From Bryobacterales bacterium (GTDB lineage: Bacteria > Acidobacteriota > Terriglobia > Bryobacterales > Bryobacteraceae), in assembly GCA_020847895.1 (NCBI GenBank), contig JADLBG010000068.1:1-41678 (forward strand): 41,678 bases of DNA, in the 5' to 3' direction. Positions 5,400-20,287 of the stretch are shown here, in pieces. Made by a program: the position numbers and the translations under genes. Positions within the stretch are counted from its first letter, which is position 1. Each line of letters begins with the position of its first letter. A model generated the notes under the pieces. That model searched no databases and had not been told where the DNA came from. It saw only the letters and a program-made list of their open reading frames with translations.

Positions 5400-6209
5400 T
5401 CATGGCGCGACTATATAAACCTTCGTCTTGACGTCGCTCTTCCCGCGCAGCACCGTGAAGACATGGCCTTTCGAATCCTGCTCCACCGATTGAATGCGAT
5501 AGAAATTTGGCGTCCCGGTCAGGCCGTTATACTGAGGCCGATCCAGGCTCGACTCGCACACGTCATAGACCACGGACGGCTCGTCCGCGCCCGCATTGGG
5601 TAGCTTAATCACGCTGTCTATGATTGCGATGTGTCCGAAGTTCGTCCAAACGAGGATGTCATTCGCCTGCACGCTTTGCTGGCTGGTCCGCCCCTTGAGT
5701 TGCCTCTGGTATAGCTCAATGGCGTTTTCCGGCCCGAGAGTCTTCAGCAGGACTCTCTGGGTGAAGTTGCCGACAAACCCCGTGCAGTAGAGTCCGATCC
5801 ATTTCCGTACATACTCCATGATCTGGTCGCGAGGCGAACCCGTCCCGCTGAGCCCGCTGGTCTTGGGATTCAGCCAGGCGAGTTTCAGCACCGCCGCGAT
5901 CTGTTCCGGCGAGCCGGCGCCCCGGTGGACCGCGGCGATCTCCCTCTTGGTTTGAGTATCCGCGGCCAAGCCTTGCATCTTACTCCAGTGGAGATAGTGC
6001 GCGAACGTCTTACTCGCGCCGGGGGCTTGCAGCGCCAGCTTCAGCTTTCCCGGATCTTTGGGGTCGTAGGGCGGATCCGCCTGATCGTACTTCACATGCC
6101 AGTTCGGCCCGGGATTCTGATAGTCTTCCACGCAAGCCGTCACCATTCCGCCGGCGCCAAGATCCACGGAGAGGTTCTTATATCGTTCGACGTACTGTTG
6201 AGTCGTCAT
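5400..6209 (-). CDS. NlpC/P60- or CHAP-like cysteine hydrolase without recognisable signal peptide
   Basis: LYCTGFVGNF (C142) and FGHIAIID (H193), spaced as in papain-like NlpC/P60 or CHAP enzymes. Confidence 0.55.
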   Translation of the reverse strand: MTTQQYVERYKNLSVDLGAGGMVTACVEDYQNPGPNWHVKYDQADPPYDPKDPGKLKLALQAPGASKTFAHYLHWSKMQGLAADTQTKREIAAVHRGAGSPEQIAAVLKLAWLNPKTSGLSGTGSPRDQIMEYVRKWIGLYCTGFVGNFTQRVLLKTLGPENAIELYQRQLKGRTSQQSVQANDILVWTNFGHIAIIDSVIKLPNAGADEPSVVYDVCESSLDRPQYNGLTGTPNFYRIQSVEQDSKGHVFTVLRGKSDVKTKVYIVAP

Positions 6210-10353: not shown

Positions 10354-11544
10354 ATGAGCCAGATTCGCGTGCGCAACCGGCTGAAGCCTCACGAGAATGT
10401 TTCCGGGGCTACCGTCACCATCGCCTCGGCGTCCAATTCCGTATCCGGGGTGACGAACTCGAGCGGTTCGGTAACCCTGAACATCGACGCGTTTCCCGAC
10501 GGCGATTACACGCTGACGGTGACCCCGTCGAGTACGTCAACCGATCCGGTGGGCCCCGCCATTGCCGGCAGTCCCACGCCGCCGGACCGCGTATTCCGTT
10601 CACTGGCGGTAACAGTGTCCATCAGCGCGAAAAAGATCACCTCCGCATCGGTTCCCGTGACCTCGAGGACCGATGGCGATGCGTCCGTCGACACGCATCA
10701 CGTGGTGACCGTGGACCTTCAGCCCGTGTGGATGCACTCCCCGAACAACGGCAGCCGCGGCACGCACCAGGTCACGATGATCATCGTGCATCACACGGGC
10801 GGCCCCGTCATCGGCCCGGCCATCAACACATTCCTCAGCACGGGAGAACAGACCAGCGCGCATTACGTCATCAACACCGACGGACAGATTGTGAAGATGG
10901 TGCAGGATTCGCGCCGCGCCAACCACGCCGGCGAAGCGCATTGGGCCGGAGTAGCGGATGTCAACTCCTGCTCCATCGGAATTGAAATTGTCAATTCCAC
11001 GGGCACGTATCCGCAGGCGCAATACACGGCTCTGCTCGATCTGATCGCGCGTCTGCGAACGTCCTTCCCCACCATCGTGGATTGGAACATCATCGGCCAT
11101 AGCGACATCGCCACCACGGCGGGCAAACTGGGACGCAAGAGCTCCGATCCCGGCCTGCAGTTTGAATGGTCGCGCCTCGAAGGGCGGCGCTTCGGAATGA
11201 CGATGATTTTCGGGCCGTTCCCCACCACCATCTACGCCGGCTTTTTCGGGTCCTTCCCGAGCGAATCGCTGCGCAAGGGCGATAACGACACCAAGCGAAT
11301 CTTCGGAGGCGCGAAACGCACCGCGATCACCGGGAATCCGGTGCGCCAATTGCAAGATGATCTCACCACCATCGGCTACCATCTGGGGACTCCCGATGGG
11401 GACTTCGGCGACAAGACCCGCGCGGCCGTGCAGATGTTCCAGGAGCATTTTTTCGCCGGCGGACGGGGTCACAAGGCGCCGGACGGAAAGGTGGACTGGC
11501 AGACGGCGCAATTGGTCAAGAGTGTCGCCGGCGCGCACCCATGA
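10354..11544 (+). CDS. N-acetylmuramoyl-L-alanine amidase (Amidase_2) with N-terminal Ig/CarboxypepD-like region and C-terminal PG_binding_1
   Basis: MIIVHHTGGP ... SAHYVINTDGQIVKMVQD ... SIGIEIVN ... IIGHSDIA ... GRKSSDPG; VRQLQDDLTTIGYHLGTPDGDFGDKTRAAVQMFQ. Confidence 0.85.
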   Translation: MSQIRVRNRLKPHENVSGATVTIASASNSVSGVTNSSGSVTLNIDAFPDGDYTLTVTPSSTSTDPVGPAIAGSPTPPDRVFRSLAVTVSISAKKITSASVPVTSRTDGDASVDTHHVVTVDLQPVWMHSPNNGSRGTHQVTMIIVHHTGGPVIGPAINTFLSTGEQTSAHYVINTDGQIVKMVQDSRRANHAGEAHWAGVADVNSCSIGIEIVNSTGTYPQAQYTALLDLIARLRTSFPTIVDWNIIGHSDIATTAGKLGRKSSDPGLQFEWSRLEGRRFGMTMIFGPFPTTIYAGFFGSFPSESLRKGDNDTKRIFGGAKRTAITGNPVRQLQDDLTTIGYHLGTPDGDFGDKTRAAVQMFQEHFFAGGRGHKAPDGKVDWQTAQLVKSVAGAHP

Positions 11545-11651: not shown

Positions 11652-12617
11652 ATGCTCGCGTCGGCTTCGTATGACAGAACACCGCGTATCGGTGTCGTCC
11701 TATCCAGTTTCCACGGAGCAACAGAACACGACGGAACGCCCATTCGCGGGCTCGCCGGCCCGCGCCCGGTGGACGCGGAACTGACTGCCGCGCAGTTCGA
11801 CGCCATGCTCGGCAAGGCGCTCGAACTCGGCAGTCGCGGAAGACGCGGCGGTCTCCCCGTTTCTCCCGATGAATGGGTGGTCTTGAAGATCACTTCGGGA
11901 CCCGCCGCAACCGACCCGCGGATGGTTGACGGCCTGCTGCGCAGACTGCTCGAAGACGGGCGCGGCAAGCGCTTCACCATTGCCGATGCGGCGCCGCCGG
12001 GCGAGGCGTACACGGAGATGCTCCGCCGGCTTCGGGAGCGCCATCCGGGTGTACGTCTGGAATATGCCGACCTTTCGGCGGATGCCTGTCTCGAAGTGCC
12101 CGCCCAGCGCCGCACCTTCGCCGCGCGCAATCCGCAAGGCGTCTATGCCATCCCCCGTACCATCCGCGAATGTGACAAGCTCATCACCCTGTCGCCGCTC
12201 CAGACCAGCGCGGTGACGGGCGTGGCATTGTCGGTCTCCAGCTACTGGTCGATGGCGCCCGTCAGCGTCTACGGCCCGCGCCGCGAGAAACTCGCCGCGC
12301 TCGGCGACCCCGTGGACGTGCTCAATGATCTCTATCTGCATCATCCGGCGGACTACGCCATCCTCGGCGGCGCGCTGCACCATGACGCCGCCGGCGTGGT
12401 GCGCCACAACATTGTCATTGCCGGTGGAAACGCGCTCGCCGTGGACGCCGTGGGAGCCGCCGTCATGGGCTTCCAACCCGAGCATCTGCCGCTGTTCGAC
12501 AAACTCGAGGCGCGCGGCTTCGGCGTCGCCGGCACAGACTCCATCTGGACCCGCGGCAACGAAATCGAAGACGCGCGCCGCCCGTTCCGCAAACCTCCTC
12601 CATGGGACAAGTCATGA
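11652..12617 (+). CDS. DUF362 domain-containing protein
   Basis: RIGVVLSSFHG ... DEWVVLKITSG ... IPRTIRECDKLITLSPLQTSAVTGVALSV; start chosen at MLASASYDRTPRIG, alternative 11610. Confidence 0.65.
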   Translation: MLASASYDRTPRIGVVLSSFHGATEHDGTPIRGLAGPRPVDAELTAAQFDAMLGKALELGSRGRRGGLPVSPDEWVVLKITSGPAATDPRMVDGLLRRLLEDGRGKRFTIADAAPPGEAYTEMLRRLRERHPGVRLEYADLSADACLEVPAQRRTFAARNPQGVYAIPRTIRECDKLITLSPLQTSAVTGVALSVSSYWSMAPVSVYGPRREKLAALGDPVDVLNDLYLHHPADYAILGGALHHDAAGVVRHNIVIAGGNALAVDAVGAAVMGFQPEHLPLFDKLEARGFGVAGTDSIWTRGNEIEDARRPFRKPPPWDKS

Positions 12618-14194
12618 ATCGCCGTGATTTTCTCTTCTCCTCCTCGGCAGCCATGGCGCTGCCCGCCTTCGCCGGAAATACGCGGCTGGGCCTGGTCCGG
12701 TCGGCGCACGCCAAACTGCGGCAACCCGCGCCGCCCGACGATGCGTTGACCTATCCGCAAGTGCGGGAGATGGTGTTCCGCGCCATCGAATACGGCGCGC
12801 CCCGCGCGGGTTCGCTCGAAGCGAAGATCAAGCCCGGATCCTGGGTGGTGCTGAAGCCCAACATCGTGTTCCTGCGCCCGCATCCCTCCTATGCCCCCGG
12901 GGACATCACGGACTTCCGCGTCACGCGCGCGGTGCTCGAATATGTGGCCACGCGCTCGCAAGCCGGACGAATCACGATCGCCGAAGGCGGCACCTATCGC
13001 AACCTGAAGGACCCGGCGGAGGACAACGTGGTTCTGCAAGGCGGCAGGCGCGCCACGGCCTACAGTTTCGATTGGGGACACCAGGAATTTCCCGGCTTTA
13101 ACGGCTCCTTGGGAACCATGCTCGCGGAGTTCCGCTCCCGGCATCCCGAAAAGACATTCGACTACGTCGACCTGAGCTACGACGCCGTGCGCGATGCGGG
13201 CGGACACTTCCGGCGCCTGGAAGTGCCCAGGGCCTCCAACGGCGCCGGAGCATTCGGCGCGCGCTCCGATTATTTCGTCACCAACACCATCACCGGCTGC
13301 GATTTTCTCATCACCATTCCCGTGATGAAGGTCCACCTGCAGTGCGGAATCACGGCCTGTTTGAAGAACTACGTGGGTACGGCGCCCCGCGAGGCATACG
13401 CCATTCCGGGCGCGTTCCACAACGCGAATCTGCACGAGCAGCACTCCGCGGGCGGCCGCATCGATCCGTTCATCGTCGACCTGGCCTCGTTCCATCCGCC
13501 GGATTACTGCGTCATCGACGGCATTCGCGGTTTACAGACGCAGGAACATTCCGTGCAGCGCGCCGGCCAGACCGTGCGCGGCAACCTGGTAATGGCCTGC
13601 GAAGACCCCGTGATGTCCGATGCCATGGTGGCGCGCCTGCTCGGCTTCCGCGAGCACGACATCGATTTCCTCCACATGGCCGCCAAGCGCGGAATGGGCA
13701 GCATGGACCTGAGCCGCCTCGATCTGCGCGGCGATGAACCGGACCGCGAAGCGCGCAAATGGGAGAAGCCCGGCAATTGGTATGGCCGCTGCAACCGCGA
13801 GTGGCTGCTGCGGGGACAGAACAGCCGGTGGACGCCCCATGCCGCGCCATTCGACACTATCGACTTGCCCGCGGCGACGCAAGTGGCGCCCGCCGCGGGC
13901 GTCACCTACACGGCGGCGGTGAATGTGCAATCGGAGGGTCACCGCCGCGGGTACTTGTGGCTCGGACTGCGCGGACGCGTGGCCGCGAGCGTGAACCGCG
14001 AACTCGTGGCGCGCACCGAGTCGCAGACCCGCTACCGCGTCGGACAGTTCCAATTCCCTGTGTCGCTGAACCCGGGAATGAACCGGCTCGAGTTCGAAGT
14101 GCAGCCGCTCGACGGCCAGGCGCTGCTGAGCGTTTTGATCACCGGACCACGCAATGACGGCGACACCCTCGAGGGAATCCGCTGGATGAGCTAG
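12614..14194 (+). CDS. DUF362 domain-containing protein with Tat-like signal
   Basis: MNRRDFLFSSSAAMALPAFAG; GSWVVLKPNIVFLRP; DFLITIPVMKVHLQCGITACLKNYVG; ATGA overlap with the upstream gene. Confidence 0.85.
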   Translation: MNRRDFLFSSSAAMALPAFAGNTRLGLVRSAHAKLRQPAPPDDALTYPQVREMVFRAIEYGAPRAGSLEAKIKPGSWVVLKPNIVFLRPHPSYAPGDITDFRVTRAVLEYVATRSQAGRITIAEGGTYRNLKDPAEDNVVLQGGRRATAYSFDWGHQEFPGFNGSLGTMLAEFRSRHPEKTFDYVDLSYDAVRDAGGHFRRLEVPRASNGAGAFGARSDYFVTNTITGCDFLITIPVMKVHLQCGITACLKNYVGTAPREAYAIPGAFHNANLHEQHSAGGRIDPFIVDLASFHPPDYCVIDGIRGLQTQEHSVQRAGQTVRGNLVMACEDPVMSDAMVARLLGFREHDIDFLHMAAKRGMGSMDLSRLDLRGDEPDREARKWEKPGNWYGRCNREWLLRGQNSRWTPHAAPFDTIDLPAATQVAPAAGVTYTAAVNVQSEGHRRGYLWLGLRGRVAASVNRELVARTESQTRYRVGQFQFPVSLNPGMNRLEFEVQPLDGQALLSVLITGPRNDGDTLEGIRWMS

Positions 14195-17100
14195 CCGTTC
14201 AGCCTGCCAATCACCGCTTCGAGCGCGTCCGAGGGCGCGCTCTTCTGCATCACATCCAACTGCGCGAGCGCGGAATCCTGCTCGTTGCCCGCGGCGTGCT
14301 GGAAGGCGGATTCATACTCTCTCACCACCTCGTCGACATGCTCGCCGAGGGTTCCGGCGAAGAGGTATTCCACTGTAAGAGCGTCCGGCAGGGCCACGCG
14401 CGCCCAGAAATCGGGGCTGTTTTTCGGGAGCCTGGCATACGCGAGAATCTCTTCGGCGGCTTCCCGTAGCGGCTCATACGGATTACCGAGTGAGTATTCG
14501 AGCATCAGCCAGTTGATGCCGGAATACGTGTCAATGAGGTTCTCTTTAGCGCGCCGGAACGTGTACGCTTCCCGGTACAGTTCCGCCGCGCGGCGGTAAT
14601 GCCCGCCCCGTTTCTCCTTGTCCTGTTCCTTCTCCCCGCGTCGCTTCGAGATGGCGCCCAGCAGCGAAAGACGCTCTCCGCTGGGACCAATGGCGGCGTT
14701 GAGGATAGAGAGCAGTTTCTCCGCCTCCGCCCACAATTGCGAGGCTTTGGCCGCCTCTTCGTTTCTCGCGCCGCGGTCCAGCACATTCGCAAGCTGCTCC
14801 AGCGCTTCGATGGGCGCGCTCGCCCGGGGAACCGCAATGGCGTTGCGATAGGCGTCAATGGCGGAGGGGAAATCCTTCAACGCCTTGTACGCTTCCCCCA
14901 GGGCAAAGAGCAGTTCGCCATCGCGCATGGTGGAAGGGCACGCGCGATCGAGTTCGGTCGCGCGCCCGCGAAGCTCCTCCGCCTCCTGGGAACTCGCGCC
15001 TTTCGCCGACGCGCTGATGTTGCGCAATTCGTTCATGTACTCGCGCTTCGAATAGAAATGGAAGGCCGCTCGCGCCGTGCTCGCCGGCCGCGGCGTGAGC
15101 GCGAAATCGGGGTTGCCATAGCACTGGTAGGCGCCCCAGGTATTGTTGTTTCCCGCCGCGTAGGCCGCTTGCCGCGCGGCGATGACAGCGTTGCCGAACC
15201 TTCCCCCTTCGAGCATGCGGCGGTAGAAGGTTTCCGCAAACACCACCGCGGCGGTGTCGTCCACGGCCCATCCGGCCGCCACTACCGCCTTCACTCCCAT
15301 CCCGATCAGCGTTTGGGCCACGCTTGCCGCCAGGGCGTTCGGATCCTCGGCGCGCAGTCTGGGCGCGTCGATTTGCGCAAGGTGGCAGCAGTTGAGGAAC
15401 ACCAGTTCGGGCAGGTTGCGGATCTGTCCGAAGATGACCGAGGTCAGATACACATTGTCGGAGAGAACCATGCCCGTCTTCTCCGGGCGGCCCGGCGTAT
15501 AGATGCCGTGCCCGGCCAGATGCAGGATGCGGTATTCGCCCGCCATGAGCCGCCGCGCCACAGTGGAGGGCGCTTCCCGAATCAGCGGACCTGCTAACTG
15601 GTAGCCCGCCGCGGCCAGCAGGCTCCCCACTGCGCGCGCTTCCGCCTGCGCTCCCGGAAGTTCCGGCAGCTTGCTCCTGCTGTCGCCTGCCACGAACGCT
15701 GTCGGTTGATGCGCGCCGCGCGGACCAGGACGAAAGTTGCGCGTCCTGAACTGGCGAATCATGCCCGTGTCGACGGCCAGCGGCGTCGTGCGGTGGCGCG
15801 TGCGCTCGGCCAGCAGTTCCCAGGGATAGTTTGCCGACGTTTCGTCCACCACAAGAACCAGATTCGCGCCCCGGACCTGCTCCTTGACGGGATTCGGAAC
15901 AAGCAGTTCAAAAAGGGCCGTTGCGCTCTCGGGGTCGTAGTCGGGGCGAGTCGTGGATTGAAGCAGCATCTCTTTCATGAGCGGATCCTGCGTGTCCACC
16001 GCGGTCTCTTCCGCGCGTGCGCGGTCCGTCAGCGAGAGGAACGTCAGCCGCGTGAGTTGGCGCGGCGCCGCCGCCCGCTCGCGCGTTTCCGGCAGTTCCA
16101 GTTCCTCGCCCCCGATCTGAATGCGGCGCCACCAACCGCCCGCATAACCATCCGGAGGCCTGTTCCACAAACCACCGGGCAGCGTGCGGAGTTGGTTGTC
16201 GAACTCGATTCTCTCCCGCGGCTCCAGGTTCGAACGCAGCCGCTCGGGAAGCGCCGCGGCGGCGTGCGCCGCTTCGATCGCCGTGTCCTCCAGCAGTTCG
16301 ATGAACTGCACTTCGTCGATCCGGACCTTGTCCCACAGGTTGCGTTTTCGAAGCACGCGATTGGCTTCGATCGCCGCCTGCACGATGGCCGCAACCGACT
16401 CGCTGACGCTGATGGCGCGGCCGCCCGAAACGCCGATCAGGACGGACGATACCGCCGCGGATTGCCACTTCCGGCCCACCGGCGGCTTCTCTTCCGCCAT
16501 CGCCAGCGCGTACCGCAGGCACGCCTCCAGCATCCCTTTGCGAACCTTGGCCGCGGTGATGTCGCCCACATCTCCAAGGCCGGCAATGAGCGCGCCGGGC
16601 GGATGCGCCCCCGGGACGCGAACCACATCCGACGTCCCCTCGGAGCCGGGGTAGATGTCCATGTGGAAGCGGTCCGAGAGTCTCCCCTTGAGCTGAATAT
16701 CGAGCTGCTTTTCGGCGCTCACAATGCCGTCGTCGGCGTAGTGGCCCACCGCAACGGGATGCGCCGCTTCGCGCAGATGTCCGTGCGCCACGCTGATGCG
16801 CAGCGCCGCTTCGGCCGTTTCGATGGGCTTCGCCGCGCCGCCGAGGGCCGCATCGAGCAGATCCGTCTCGCCCGGGAAGAAGACAGCCTGTTCCTTCGCA
16901 AGCAGTTGCCGCGGATCGGCAATGGCGGGCCGGGCGGTAGGCGTGGAATCAAGCGCGGACGTAGCGCCGCGCGTGAGCAGATCAAGAATGGGGCCCGCCT
17001 GCGAAGGCAGTTCGCCGTGCGCTGCCGCGGGGCTGTACCAGGTCTTGACGCGAGCCGGCATCCCCGCTGCGTACGTTACCTGGCCGTCGCCTTCTGTCGT

Positions 17101-19278
17101 GTACTCCGTCATCCCTGACGGCGTGGCTCCGGCCGAACCGGCTACCGCCGCGATGCGGTCGGGATCGAGCGCGGCCGCCGCGAATTCGACTCGCCACTTC
17201 CTGCTGTTGGCGAGAAGGGCGAGGTTCGGGCGGCCAGGCAGACCATCCCAGCGGCTTGCGTCGAACATCTCTTCCGGCAGCATGTCGAGCAAACCCGCGA
17301 ATCCCTGAAGTGTGGCCGTCACCTGTGCCTGGCTGTGGCGGCCGAGCAGAGCGAGCATGCGCGCCAGAGACGCCTGCCCGGCGAGCAGCCTCGCAATATG
17401 CCAGCTTCCCCGGAACGGCGCGCCGAGCAGCAGCATTTTCGAATTCGCCTTGCACAGATCGGTCCACACCGGACCATTTGCGCGCGCAAATTCGAGCGCT
17501 ACCAATCCGCCCATTCCGTGCCCGATCAGGTGCACCGGGCGGCCGCTCTGCTTGCGCTTGTCCGCGATGAGGGCCGACAAGCCGGCGGCGGATTCCGCAA
17601 CCGGTTTGCGCCAGTCGTAAGGCAACAGCGCCGTGTCGTAGTTCGCGAGCAGGCGCGTGTACAGATCATCGTAGAGCCCCAGCACCTTGCCGGCGGCGCC
17701 GCCCCCGTCCGCGAGTTCGAGAAATCGCCCGCCGCCGAGAGCGTCGTAATCGAGCCAGATGCCGCTTCCATCTGCCGCATTCAACTGCGTGCCGAAGGCG
17801 TCCGGAATCAGGATGGCGATGGGAAGAGTTTCCGCTCCCCGCGCGCCGCCGCGCGCGGCAAGGCCGCGCACACGCTGGAAATCGGGCGGCGTCACGTCAA
17901 ACGGCGCGCCCAGCCATTCCAGAATTCGCGAGCGTGACCGCTGGTTCTTGAAATAGCTGAAGTGGTTCACCGTGTCGCCCTGATCCAGGAATTGGTACAC
18001 GCCGCGCGTGCGCGCCATGCCGCCCGACATCGAGCGTGTGTTGACGACGAAGTCGTTGTCCTCCCAGTAGTAGGCGCGCAAGGCGTACTCCTTGAGGCTC
18101 CCCCAGAAGCCCGAGCCTTCGAAATCGCCCGCGATTACGCCCAGGTCGGCTTTGCTTTGCAACCCGCGCGTGTTGAGCAGGTGAATCAGCGGAGACTCCG
18201 GCATCTGCGCTTCAATTCCCGGAATCAACGATGGGTCCGCGCGCAGCTTGATGAGTTCGAGCGCGGCGGCTTTGAACAGCGCATAGAAGGGGTTCGCACT
18301 CAGTCCGGGAATGTGGCCGATGACGTTCAGGATGATGTTGAGGTAGGTGTCGAGGCGCTTCGAGGCGAGGATGGTGCCGGCCGCCGGACACGCCGTGCGG
18401 ACGAACTTCGCCACCGTGAACTGCTTCTGCGCCAGCGTGGCCGCGAGGTTCCTCAGCAGATCATGATCCGGACGGCCCTCAAACGCGGCAAGGTCGTCTT
18501 CGCTGAGCGGACCGAGGCAGAGCAACTCGCCCACCAGTCCGCCGCGCGAGTGCGTGATGACATGCACCGCCGCCTGCGCGGGCAGCAGCGCGGCAAGGTC
18601 GAGCGTGTTCCGCGCCGGGCTCACCGAAAACGTGCAATGTTCGAGCGCGAGAATGCGGTTGGGGTATTTCGAAACGAGATCCTTCCACTCCTGCGTCGGC
18701 TGGTTCTGCGCGTCGCGCCAGAAGCCGCTGAAACTCCCCTCCGTGCTCGATGCCGTGCCGTGGATGAACACCAGGTACGGAGCCTTGGTATCGAGTTGCT
18801 GCGCGCCGGTAATCTGTTCCCCGAACGATCCGTCGCCGTTGAGCCGGTAGAGACCGGTCTTCAGCCGCCCGTCGAAATGTTCGACAACGGCGAGGGCCGT
18901 TTCCCGCGCGATCGCATCCGCCGGGCTGACGCCGAAAACGTGCAGCGCCTTGAGAGCCCAATCCGTGACGCCGCGCGTCGCCCCGCCGCGATAGAGGCTG
19001 GCCGGGATGACGATTTCATTTCCCCCGCGCGAAGCGCCCACTTCCGCGGCCAGTTGATCGGCGCGCAGGTATTCCGTGATGCCGCATTCATATTCGATCT
19101 TGACGATGGAATCGGGCGCGGTGTCGACGCGCGCCGCCGCCCGCGCCTCTCCCCGGCGCGCCGGAACGATAGCATGCGAGCTTGCCGCGCGGACGTTCAA
19201 CAGCCCCGCTATCTCGGGCTCGGATATGGTTTCAATAGGAATTCCAGGAATTACGAATGATATCGTCTGATTTGCCAC
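14191..19278 (-). CDS. Giant CHAT-domain protease with two alpha/beta-hydrolase modules and C-terminal TPR/TRAFs-binding-like region
   Basis: YLVFIHGTASSTEG/VHVITHSRGGLVGE (DUF7379-like hydrolase); IAILIPDAFGTQLN/HLIGHGMGGLVALEFA (LCAT-like); ILHLAGHGIY (H1257) and LVFLNCCHLA (C1298) with GMGVKAVVAAGWAVDD...FAETFY (CHAT); helical C-terminal tail; GTG start with a GAGGAGGG SD. Confidence 0.85.
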   Translation of the reverse strand: MANQTISFVIPGIPIETISEPEIAGLLNVRAASSHAIVPARRGEARAAARVDTAPDSIVKIEYECGITEYLRADQLAAEVGASRGGNEIVIPASLYRGGATRGVTDWALKALHVFGVSPADAIARETALAVVEHFDGRLKTGLYRLNGDGSFGEQITGAQQLDTKAPYLVFIHGTASSTEGSFSGFWRDAQNQPTQEWKDLVSKYPNRILALEHCTFSVSPARNTLDLAALLPAQAAVHVITHSRGGLVGELLCLGPLSEDDLAAFEGRPDHDLLRNLAATLAQKQFTVAKFVRTACPAAGTILASKRLDTYLNIILNVIGHIPGLSANPFYALFKAAALELIKLRADPSLIPGIEAQMPESPLIHLLNTRGLQSKADLGVIAGDFEGSGFWGSLKEYALRAYYWEDNDFVVNTRSMSGGMARTRGVYQFLDQGDTVNHFSYFKNQRSRSRILEWLGAPFDVTPPDFQRVRGLAARGGARGAETLPIAILIPDAFGTQLNAADGSGIWLDYDALGGGRFLELADGGGAAGKVLGLYDDLYTRLLANYDTALLPYDWRKPVAESAAGLSALIADKRKQSGRPVHLIGHGMGGLVALEFARANGPVWTDLCKANSKMLLLGAPFRGSWHIARLLAGQASLARMLALLGRHSQAQVTATLQGFAGLLDMLPEEMFDASRWDGLPGRPNLALLANSRKWRVEFAAAALDPDRIAAVAGSAGATPSGMTEYTTEGDGQVTYAAGMPARVKTWYSPAAAHGELPSQAGPILDLLTRGATSALDSTPTARPAIADPRQLLAKEQAVFFPGETDLLDAALGGAAKPIETAEAALRISVAHGHLREAAHPVAVGHYADDGIVSAEKQLDIQLKGRLSDRFHMDIYPGSEGTSDVVRVPGAHPPGALIAGLGDVGDITAAKVRKGMLEACLRYALAMAEEKPPVGRKWQSAAVSSVLIGVSGGRAISVSESVAAIVQAAIEANRVLRKRNLWDKVRIDEVQFIELLEDTAIEAAHAAAALPERLRSNLEPRERIEFDNQLRTLPGGLWNRPPDGYAGGWWRRIQIGGEELELPETRERAAAPRQLTRLTFLSLTDRARAEETAVDTQDPLMKEMLLQSTTRPDYDPESATALFELLVPNPVKEQVRGANLVLVVDETSANYPWELLAERTRHRTTPLAVDTGMIRQFRTRNFRPGPRGAHQPTAFVAGDSRSKLPELPGAQAEARAVGSLLAAAGYQLAGPLIREAPSTVARRLMAGEYRILHLAGHGIYTPGRPEKTGMVLSDNVYLTSVIFGQIRNLPELVFLNCCHLAQIDAPRLRAEDPNALAASVAQTLIGMGVKAVVAAGWAVDDTAAVVFAETFYRRMLEGGRFGNAVIAARQAAYAAGNNNTWGAYQCYGNPDFALTPRPASTARAAFHFYSKREYMNELRNISASAKGASSQEAEELRGRATELDRACPSTMRDGELLFALGEAYKALKDFPSAIDAYRNAIAVPRASAPIEALEQLANVLDRGARNEEAAKASQLWAEAEKLLSILNAAIGPSGERLSLLGAISKRRGEKEQDKEKRGGHYRRAAELYREAYTFRRAKENLIDTYSGINWLMLEYSLGNPYEPLREAAEEILAYARLPKNSPDFWARVALPDALTVEYLFAGTLGEHVDEVVREYESAFQHAAGNEQDSALAQLDVMQKSAPSDALEAVIGRLNG

Positions 19279-19309
19279 CGCCGCCCTCCTCGCTGGGTTA
19301 TTAGTTTAT

Positions 19310-19327
19310 CGCATGCCGCGGAATGCG
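19310..19327. promoter_or_regulatory. Near-perfect 18-bp palindrome in divergent promoter region
   Basis: CGCATGCCGCGGAATGCG, 8 of 9 base pairs symmetric. Confidence 0.4.
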
Positions 19328-19342
19328 TTTAGACTGGATGGG

Positions 19343-20287
19343 ATGCTCAGTATTGTGGTTCCAGACGACTATCCGGCAGTGCTGGCTCCGAGCGCTGCTT
19401 ATCAACGGCTGTTGGCCGAAACCCCCGTCGCCTATTACGACTCGCTCCCCGGCGGCGAGGAGCCTCTCATCGAGCGGATCCGGAGTTTCGAGGCGCTCAT
19501 CAATGTCCGCTCCTCGACGAAGTTCACCGAACGTGTGTTTGCCGCCTGCCCGCGCTTGAAACTGCTCTCCATTTGGGGAACCGGAACCGACAACGTGGAC
19601 CTCGCCGCCGCCGCGCGGCACGGCGTGACGGTGACCAATACGCCCGGCGTCGCCGCCGTCTCCATCGCCGAGCATTCTCTTCTGCTCGCGCTCGCCGTGG
19701 CGCGCCGCATCGTCGACATTCATAACCGCACCGCCGCCGGAGAATGGCCGCGCGGGCAATCGGCGCAGCTTCATGGAAAGACACTGGGCATCATCGGACT
19801 CGGCGCCATCGGACGTCAGTTCGCCCGCCTGGGGCAGGGAATCGGCATGCGCGTCATCGCCTGGACCATGCATCCAAATCCCGCCCTCGGCTTCGAACTC
19901 GTGCCGCTCGAGGAACTGTTGCGGTCGAGCGACGTCGTCAGTCTCCATCTCCGCCAATCGCCCCGGACCATGGGCTTCCTTGGCAGGGAACAGTTCTCTC
20001 TCATGAAGAAAAGCGCGATTTTCGTAAACACCGCGCGCGGCCCCATCGTGGATGAAGCCGCCATGATCGAGGCGTTGCGCGAGCGGCGAATCGCCGGCGC
20101 GGGTCTCGATGTGTTCGAGAAAGAACCGCTGCCGCAAGGGCACATCTTCACCACCTTGGACAACGTCGTGCTGACGCCTCATTGCGCCGGAGTGACGCCG
20201 GAGGTGCTCGAGGCGGGCCTCGCGCTCTCTATCGAAAACATTCGCTGCTACGCGGGAGGCAAGCCGCAAAACGTCGTTACAGCTTGA
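19343..20287 (+). CDS. D-isomer-specific 2-hydroxyacid dehydrogenase
   Basis: GKTLGIIGLGAIGRQFARLGQGIGMRVIAW; NTARGPIVDEAAM; AGLDVFEKEPLP; VVLTPHCAG. Confidence 0.92.
   Translation: MLSIVVPDDYPAVLAPSAAYQRLLAETPVAYYDSLPGGEEPLIERIRSFEALINVRSSTKFTERVFAACPRLKLLSIWGTGTDNVDLAAAARHGVTVTNTPGVAAVSIAEHSLLLALAVARRIVDIHNRTAAGEWPRGQSAQLHGKTLGIIGLGAIGRQFARLGQGIGMRVIAWTMHPNPALGFELVPLEELLRSSDVVSLHLRQSPRTMGFLGREQFSLMKKSAIFVNTARGPIVDEAAMIEALRERRIAGAGLDVFEKEPLPQGHIFTTLDNVVLTPHCAGVTPEVLEAGLALSIENIRCYAGGKPQNVVTA

Follow-up and report, generated by a model that had tools for sequence, protein, structure and literature searches.

A colinear family of bacterial proteins joining hydrolase, macro-fold, CHAT, and TPR-S modules: candidate signal-gated effectors of intracellular conflict

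The window analyzed here, a 41,678-nucleotide contig from a Bryobacterales bacterium (JADLBG010000068.1, assembly GCA_020847895.1), encodes a 1695-aa protein in which two alpha/beta-hydrolase modules, a macro-fold domain, a CHAT domain, and a TPR-S tail follow one another. Judging from its sequence, we propose that this protein damages its own cell when induced, as an effector of an intracellular conflict system, probably an anti-phage one, with a NAD-derived signal as its most likely trigger; we give this reading a probability of about 0.5. The proposal is built on the domains themselves, their intact and lost active sites, the colinear conservation and sporadic spread of the family, and a statistical association with TIR genes. 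A previous sequence-only reading, which described a CHAT protease fused to two hydrolases and a helical tail, understated the find: it included neither the macro domain, the TPR-S assignment, nor the wide colinear family.

Results

Gene structure and genomic setting

The gene is a single uninterrupted frame with a GTG start, and a good ribosome binding site, AGGAGG, lies six bases 5′ of that start. A second Bryobacterales metagenome-assembled genome (MAG) carries the same frame without gaps, at 92% amino acid identity and with an overall dN/dS of 0.13. The window frame is therefore a selected gene, and the continuous 1695-aa ORF recognized earlier is real. The features discussed below, listed by position in the window, are as follows.

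14191-19278, minus strand: whole gene for the hydrolase-(LCAT-like)-macro-CHAT-TPR-S protein, 1695 aa, GTG start
18799-19278, minus strand: N-terminal region (residues 1-160), mostly strands; poorly conserved, as is the tail
17899-18798, minus strand: hydrolase 1 (DUF7379; residues about 161-460), alpha/beta-hydrolase fold with intact S244, D409, H439 triad
16954-17841, minus strand: hydrolase 2 (LCAT-like; residues about 480-775), D731 and H754 kept, Ser588 replaced by Gly (codon 17515-17517)
16183-16818, minus strand: macro-fold domain (residues about 821-1032), leucine-aminopeptidase N-domain/macro type
15112-15930, minus strand: predicted CHAT protease domain (residues 1117-1389), H1257/C1298 dyad intact
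14500-14871, minus strand: TPR-S sensor domain (residues 1470-1593), inside the helical tail (residues 1396-1695)
10354-11544, plus strand: Amidase_2 and PG_binding_1 protein, 2.6 kb past the 3′ end of the gene, no obvious signal peptide; a possible associate only, weakly linked

A 2-hydroxyacid dehydrogenase gene (19313-20287) is divergent from the family gene, and a DUF362 gene (12602-14194) is convergent with it, the two stops overlapping by four bases; the family gene is therefore a single-gene unit in ordinary metabolic surroundings. A minus-strand ORF upstream (19301-20269) was considered as an operon partner and rejected as the shadow of the plus-strand dehydrogenase gene. Besides the amidase with its peptidoglycan-binding domain (10354-11544), the window contains a weak CHAP-domain protein (5400-6209). 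The family gene keeps its genomic place in the two closest Bryobacterales. Residues 64-1395, with all catalytic domains, are missing from the gene in a Bryobacterales MAG contig with flanks ~98% identical (L008:1460-2584; L numbers denote loci of relatives), and a 42-bp piece from the linker is present at the junction; this may be either a natural loss or an assembly fault. The window protein had no family match at E 0.001 in a search of PADLOC-DB 2.0 profiles and matched no named family in NCBIfam. Phage origin was rejected: phage records gave no match, and none was confirmed among viral contigs.

Domains and active sites

Pfam DUF7379 matched residues 169-254 above its cutoff (2.9e-25), and the predicted structure of residues 1-475 is an alpha/beta-hydrolase, with thioesterases and Geobacillus lipases as its nearest folds. 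The S244/D409/H439 triad was invariant in all 52 members that carry hydrolase 1 (52/52), in agreement with the previously proposed DUF7379-like hydrolase, its fold, and the place of S244 in it. For the second module, Pfam LCAT (PF02450) matched residues 552-635 above its cutoff (9.7e-8), and LCAT and PLA2G15 chains in the PDB matched at 5e-5 to 8e-4. The LCAT-like assignment was thus correct as to family, but the catalytic serine of the GHSMGG motif is replaced in the window protein (GHGMGG; S588G). Of 55 members, 51 have Ser as this nucleophile; Gly takes its place in the window protein and L003 and, independently, in two Chitinophaga-family genomes, where the catalytic His has changed as well. 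The nucleophile has therefore been lost at least twice, and hydrolase 2 should be inert in the window protein. For this protein, the notion of two working hydrolases on one chain was rejected because of S588G.

The CHAT profile (PF12770) covered residues 1117-1389 almost end to end (2e-30; profile positions 2-289 of 289), and H1257 and C1298 were invariant in 56/56 members. With a whole-domain profile match and the His/Cys dyad, the window CHAT is a predicted protease, as had been proposed from these two residues. Across the family, the predicted active sites of hydrolase 1 and CHAT are lost in no member in which the respective domain is present. Between the window gene and L003, dN/dS was 0.065 in hydrolase 1, 0.073 in the macro domain, 0.148 in CHAT, 0.174 in the LCAT module, and 0.179 in the tail, a ranking in line with loss of hydrolase 2 and retention of hydrolase 1 and CHAT.

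The central region ahead of CHAT, left unnamed in the sequence-only reading, was assigned to the macro fold by AlphaFold, Foldseek, and profile comparison. In an AlphaFold (AF2) model of residues 776-1120, the core (about 821-1032) had a pLDDT of about 90. Foldseek matched this core with probability 1.00 to leucine aminopeptidase (LAP) N-domains, the best matches, and to the true macro domains macroH2A1.1 (TM-score by target, 0.69), YmdB, and PARP9 (macro 2; TM-score by target, 0.70). A profile of the region searched against the PDB retrieved a cytosol aminopeptidase N-domain (E 4.5e-5). Pfam Peptidase_M17_N was below threshold in the window protein and reached 1.4e-8 in relatives, with 7 of 22 members matching. 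The motifs GH..D, YPG, GLG, and G-x-G-Y-G-G are kept across the family; by eye, the last of these, a Gly-rich loop, would sit where ADP-ribose-binding macro domains carry their phosphate loop. Aminopeptidase N-domains are not known to bind ADP-ribose. The model supports a macro fold, a type of domain with which fragments of NAD often associate; in this family, binding of ADP-ribose or another NAD derivative is putative.

The tail is helical, as described, and what had seemed a generic TRAF-binding-like repeat corresponds to Pfam TPR-S (PF20308; 5e-12, 46.7 bits versus a cutoff of 27.6), which matched 13 of 16 member tails. A 2020 survey in the Journal of Bacteriology, said to be the founding paper for TPR-S and pYEATS, reportedly named TPR-S as a sensor and predicted that it reads NAD-derived signals.

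Distribution and variants of the family

About 50 colinear homologues were found (roughly 1,700-1,990 aa, about 30% identity), so that the joining of CHAT and hydrolase modules seen in the window is preserved intact in Acidobacteriota, Bacteroidota, and proteobacterial plasmids (Paracoccus, Ensifer, Azotobacter). Among the genomes sampled, the family was present in 3 of 297 Acidobacteriota, 2 of 200 from the window's order, 7 of 396 Bacteroidota, 37 of 399 from the Chitinophaga family, and 2 of 398 from the Chryseobacterium order; the gene was absent from all nine same-genus relatives of the window organism. In a tree of the macro-CHAT part, the full-length Bacteroidota sequences and most plasmid sequences group separately. 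The family is therefore old and seems to have been transferred only occasionally between phyla. Shorter relatives have the compositions macro-CHAT-tail (L021), LCAT-macro-CHAT (L022, L041, and L042), and DUF7379-CHAT (L023), and the module constant across full-length and shorter relatives is the predicted CHAT protease. A search of the open literature turned up no description of the architecture, and nothing relevant was returned for CHAT combined with a macro domain or with DUF7379; within that literature the five-module architecture appears to be undescribed.

A gene that stands alone among metabolic or ordinary genes, in the window as in many members from the Chitinophaga family, and that keeps its place in the two closest Bryobacterales could encode an enzyme with a housekeeping or developmental role in lipid or envelope metabolism that matures by regulated proteolysis. 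We regard this as improbable given the extreme patchiness of the distribution, which extends to absence from the same-genus relatives, the existence of plasmid copies, the MAG contig with nearly identical flanks that is without residues 64-1395, and the TIR, STAND, and SIR2 genes among the neighbors of other members.

Gene neighborhoods

Of 44 Bacteroidota genomes, 7 had a TIR_2 match no more than 5 kb from the family gene, compared to 0.37 expected from position alone when TIR_2 was counted over whole genomes (P about 6e-8; the 5-kb limit was chosen after the first TIR cases had been seen). Of the other CHAT matches in family-bearing genomes (n = 78, 11 genomes), only one had a TIR within 5 kb, and this was a TIR-CHAT fusion. 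The partners are diverse. An LRR-Roc-TIR gene lies 26 bp downstream of the family gene in L007, and a pair of TIR and ParA-like NTPase genes with conserved order lies downstream in L011 (15059-17499) and upstream in L013 (7062-9835). ThsB_TIR followed by TIR-nSTAND1-WD40 adjoins the family gene in L039, as do an nSTAND1-propeller gene and a periplasmic-binding-like gene in L019, and a type I restriction region is found near it on a plasmid in L020. By the shorter relatives are an overlapping SIR2-pYEATS gene (L022), a SIR2-AAA gene (L023), and a TIR-nSTAND1-WD40 gene (L021).

Several further loci were recorded. The Rhizobium plasmid island L021:7002-26292 holds several TIR NTPase proteins around the short macro-CHAT-tail protein. 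On Paracoccus plasmids, an uncharacterized protein of 1,090 aa, which has a solute-binding domain and hydrophobic segments at its N terminus, is encoded closely linked upstream of the family gene (L017:8547-11831 and L018:8606-11881). A 134-aa (cut) protein 19 bp downstream in L075 (1-402) has no Pfam match and by eye resembles DRHyd (deoxyribosyltransferase/TIR-like). A related acidobacterial genome, with 35 CHAT and 26 TIR matches, encodes TIR and CHAT domains within a single 1,541-aa open frame (G291:C75:39934-41577).

Most homologues, including that of the window, have no adjoining TIR or STAND gene, several host genomes are entirely free of TIR_2 matches, and no partner gene common to all members was found. 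The window's contig has no TIR_2 match; elsewhere in the window genome there are 11 TIR matches, and a partner in trans is therefore possible. A conflict or defense context, of the kind suggested by the sequence-only reading, is supported in a significant minority of homologues. The picture of a self-contained device drawn in that reading is not supported as it stands: an external trigger is indicated by the macro and TPR-S modules and by the TIR and STAND genes that recur as neighbors.

That trigger, the sole point at issue between our model and the following alternative, could be protein contact: an NLR-like sensor (STAND, LRR-Roc, or WD40) would bind the TPR tail of the same effector, and the macro fold would be only structural, as in leucine aminopeptidases. 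The LAP N-domains at the head of the Foldseek matches fit this view, as do the nSTAND1 and LRR-Roc neighbors, which are sensors in their own right. TPR-CHAT (Csx29) likewise acts in complex with a CRISPR partner protein (PMC9729208 and PMC11089037). Several partners, however, are bare TIR or SIR2-type proteins (L011, L013, L039, and L022), and the family keeps the G-x-G-Y-G-G loop at what is, by eye, the phosphate-loop place. TPR-S, moreover, is itself reportedly a sensor. On balance we consider contact triggering rather unlikely.

Murein-hydrolase-like genes form a second class of neighbor, weaker than the TIR association. Endolysin-like genes with no obvious signal peptide are found 87 bp downstream in L043 (12377-13138, PG_binding and CHAP), 4 bp downstream in L021 (14800-15447, GH108), 4 bp downstream in L038 (6008-7243, PG_binding), and nearby in L061 (4954-5841); the types at these four loci are CHAP, GH108, peptidoglycan-binding, and muramidase-like. 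Together with the window amidase, they could point to regulated lysis, in which the hydrolase and CHAT would breach the inner membrane and let the adjacent signal-less enzyme reach the wall, a host-gene copy of the phage holin-endolysin pair. PG_binding_1 occurred within 5 kb in 4 of 45 genomes versus 0.28 expected (P about 2e-4), but this count is post hoc and includes the cases that suggested the pattern. With most loci having no murein-hydrolase-like neighbor, we judge such a role improbable.

Discussion

Proposed mechanism

NAD-derived signals made by TIR enzymes activate SLOG, macro, and caspase-like effectors (PMC11204291 and PMC12847820); TM-macro effectors are switched on by His-ADPR, and a caspase-like protease by N7-cADPR (PMC12847820 and PMC11204291). 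For the window protein, we infer defense itself, along with the signal, the substrates, and the order in which the parts are activated. Given the TIR precedents and the prediction reportedly made for TPR-S, the likeliest device would be a signal-gated protease that has a serine hydrolase under its control and puts the cell out of action. Until triggered, the CHAT protease and hydrolase 1 would be kept inactive. On infection, a partner would raise a signal, most likely a NAD-derived nucleotide; in some relatives this partner may be the TIR, SIR2, or STAND-type sensor, and in the window genome it is perhaps encoded elsewhere. The macro domain, the TPR-S tail, or both would read the signal, and its binding would release the CHAT cysteine protease, which would cut host proteins and possibly its own linkers. 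Linker cutting, the possible route to hydrolase activation already raised from the sequence, would release the DUF7379 serine hydrolase too, which could then attack membrane lipids or acyl esters/thioesters. The cell would be disabled or lysed ahead of phage maturation.

A bolder version, which we hold to be unlikely, is that a TIR-made NAD derivative acts as the switch for the macro domain, that this domain gates the caspase-clan protease directly, and that the protease frees the fused lipase, with the endolysin next door following in some relatives; this would be a host-made lysis cassette and a new class of immune executioner. Should our proposal of a signal-gated effector be right, the protein and membrane destruction outputs of bacterial suicide would be joined on one chain with a likely signal-reading domain. 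The conserved macro-CHAT pairing poses a precise, testable question, namely, whether a macro domain can gate a caspase-like protease. About a tenth of sampled species in the Chitinophaga family carry a member, enough for tractable ones with TIR partners to be found among them. Which activities natural selection retains can be read from the repeated loss of one hydrolase site.

Comparison with known systems

The sequence-only reading had compared the protein with TPR-CHAT (Csx29) of type III-E CRISPR Craspase. The likeness is one of kind, a CHAT protease with a TPR region; the window family has extra enzyme modules, no Csx29 chain matched by sequence, and no gRAMP/Cas7-11 gene was seen among the neighbor genes scanned. 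Type II Thoeris TM-macro ThsA (PMC11204291) shares a macro fold in a putative effector with TIR neighbors, once ThsB_TIR (L039). The output of the family would be protease and hydrolase activity, in contrast to the transmembrane clustering of ThsA, and its macro domain is of the aminopeptidase-N type, with putative ligand binding. Type IV Thoeris combines TIR with a caspase-like protease (Rousset et al. 2025, as cited in PMC12847820). Similarly, in the neighborhoods of some relatives a caspase-clan protease effector is found together with a TIR gene, and a NAD-derived trigger is plausible; compared by description, the family differs in having its CHAT domain on one chain with two hydrolases, a macro domain, and TPR-S. 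The TIR gene (ThsB) that marks a Thoeris locus is found by some relatives and is lacking near the window gene. We claim membership in neither Thoeris nor Craspase; by analogy, the family may resemble Thoeris in its working. The five-module polypeptide was not found described in the papers searched. The conflict effectors surveyed by the Aravind group (for example, PMC8195603) are made of the same kinds of parts, caspase-like, alpha/beta-hydrolase, TIR, and STAND, and follow the same neighborhood logic.
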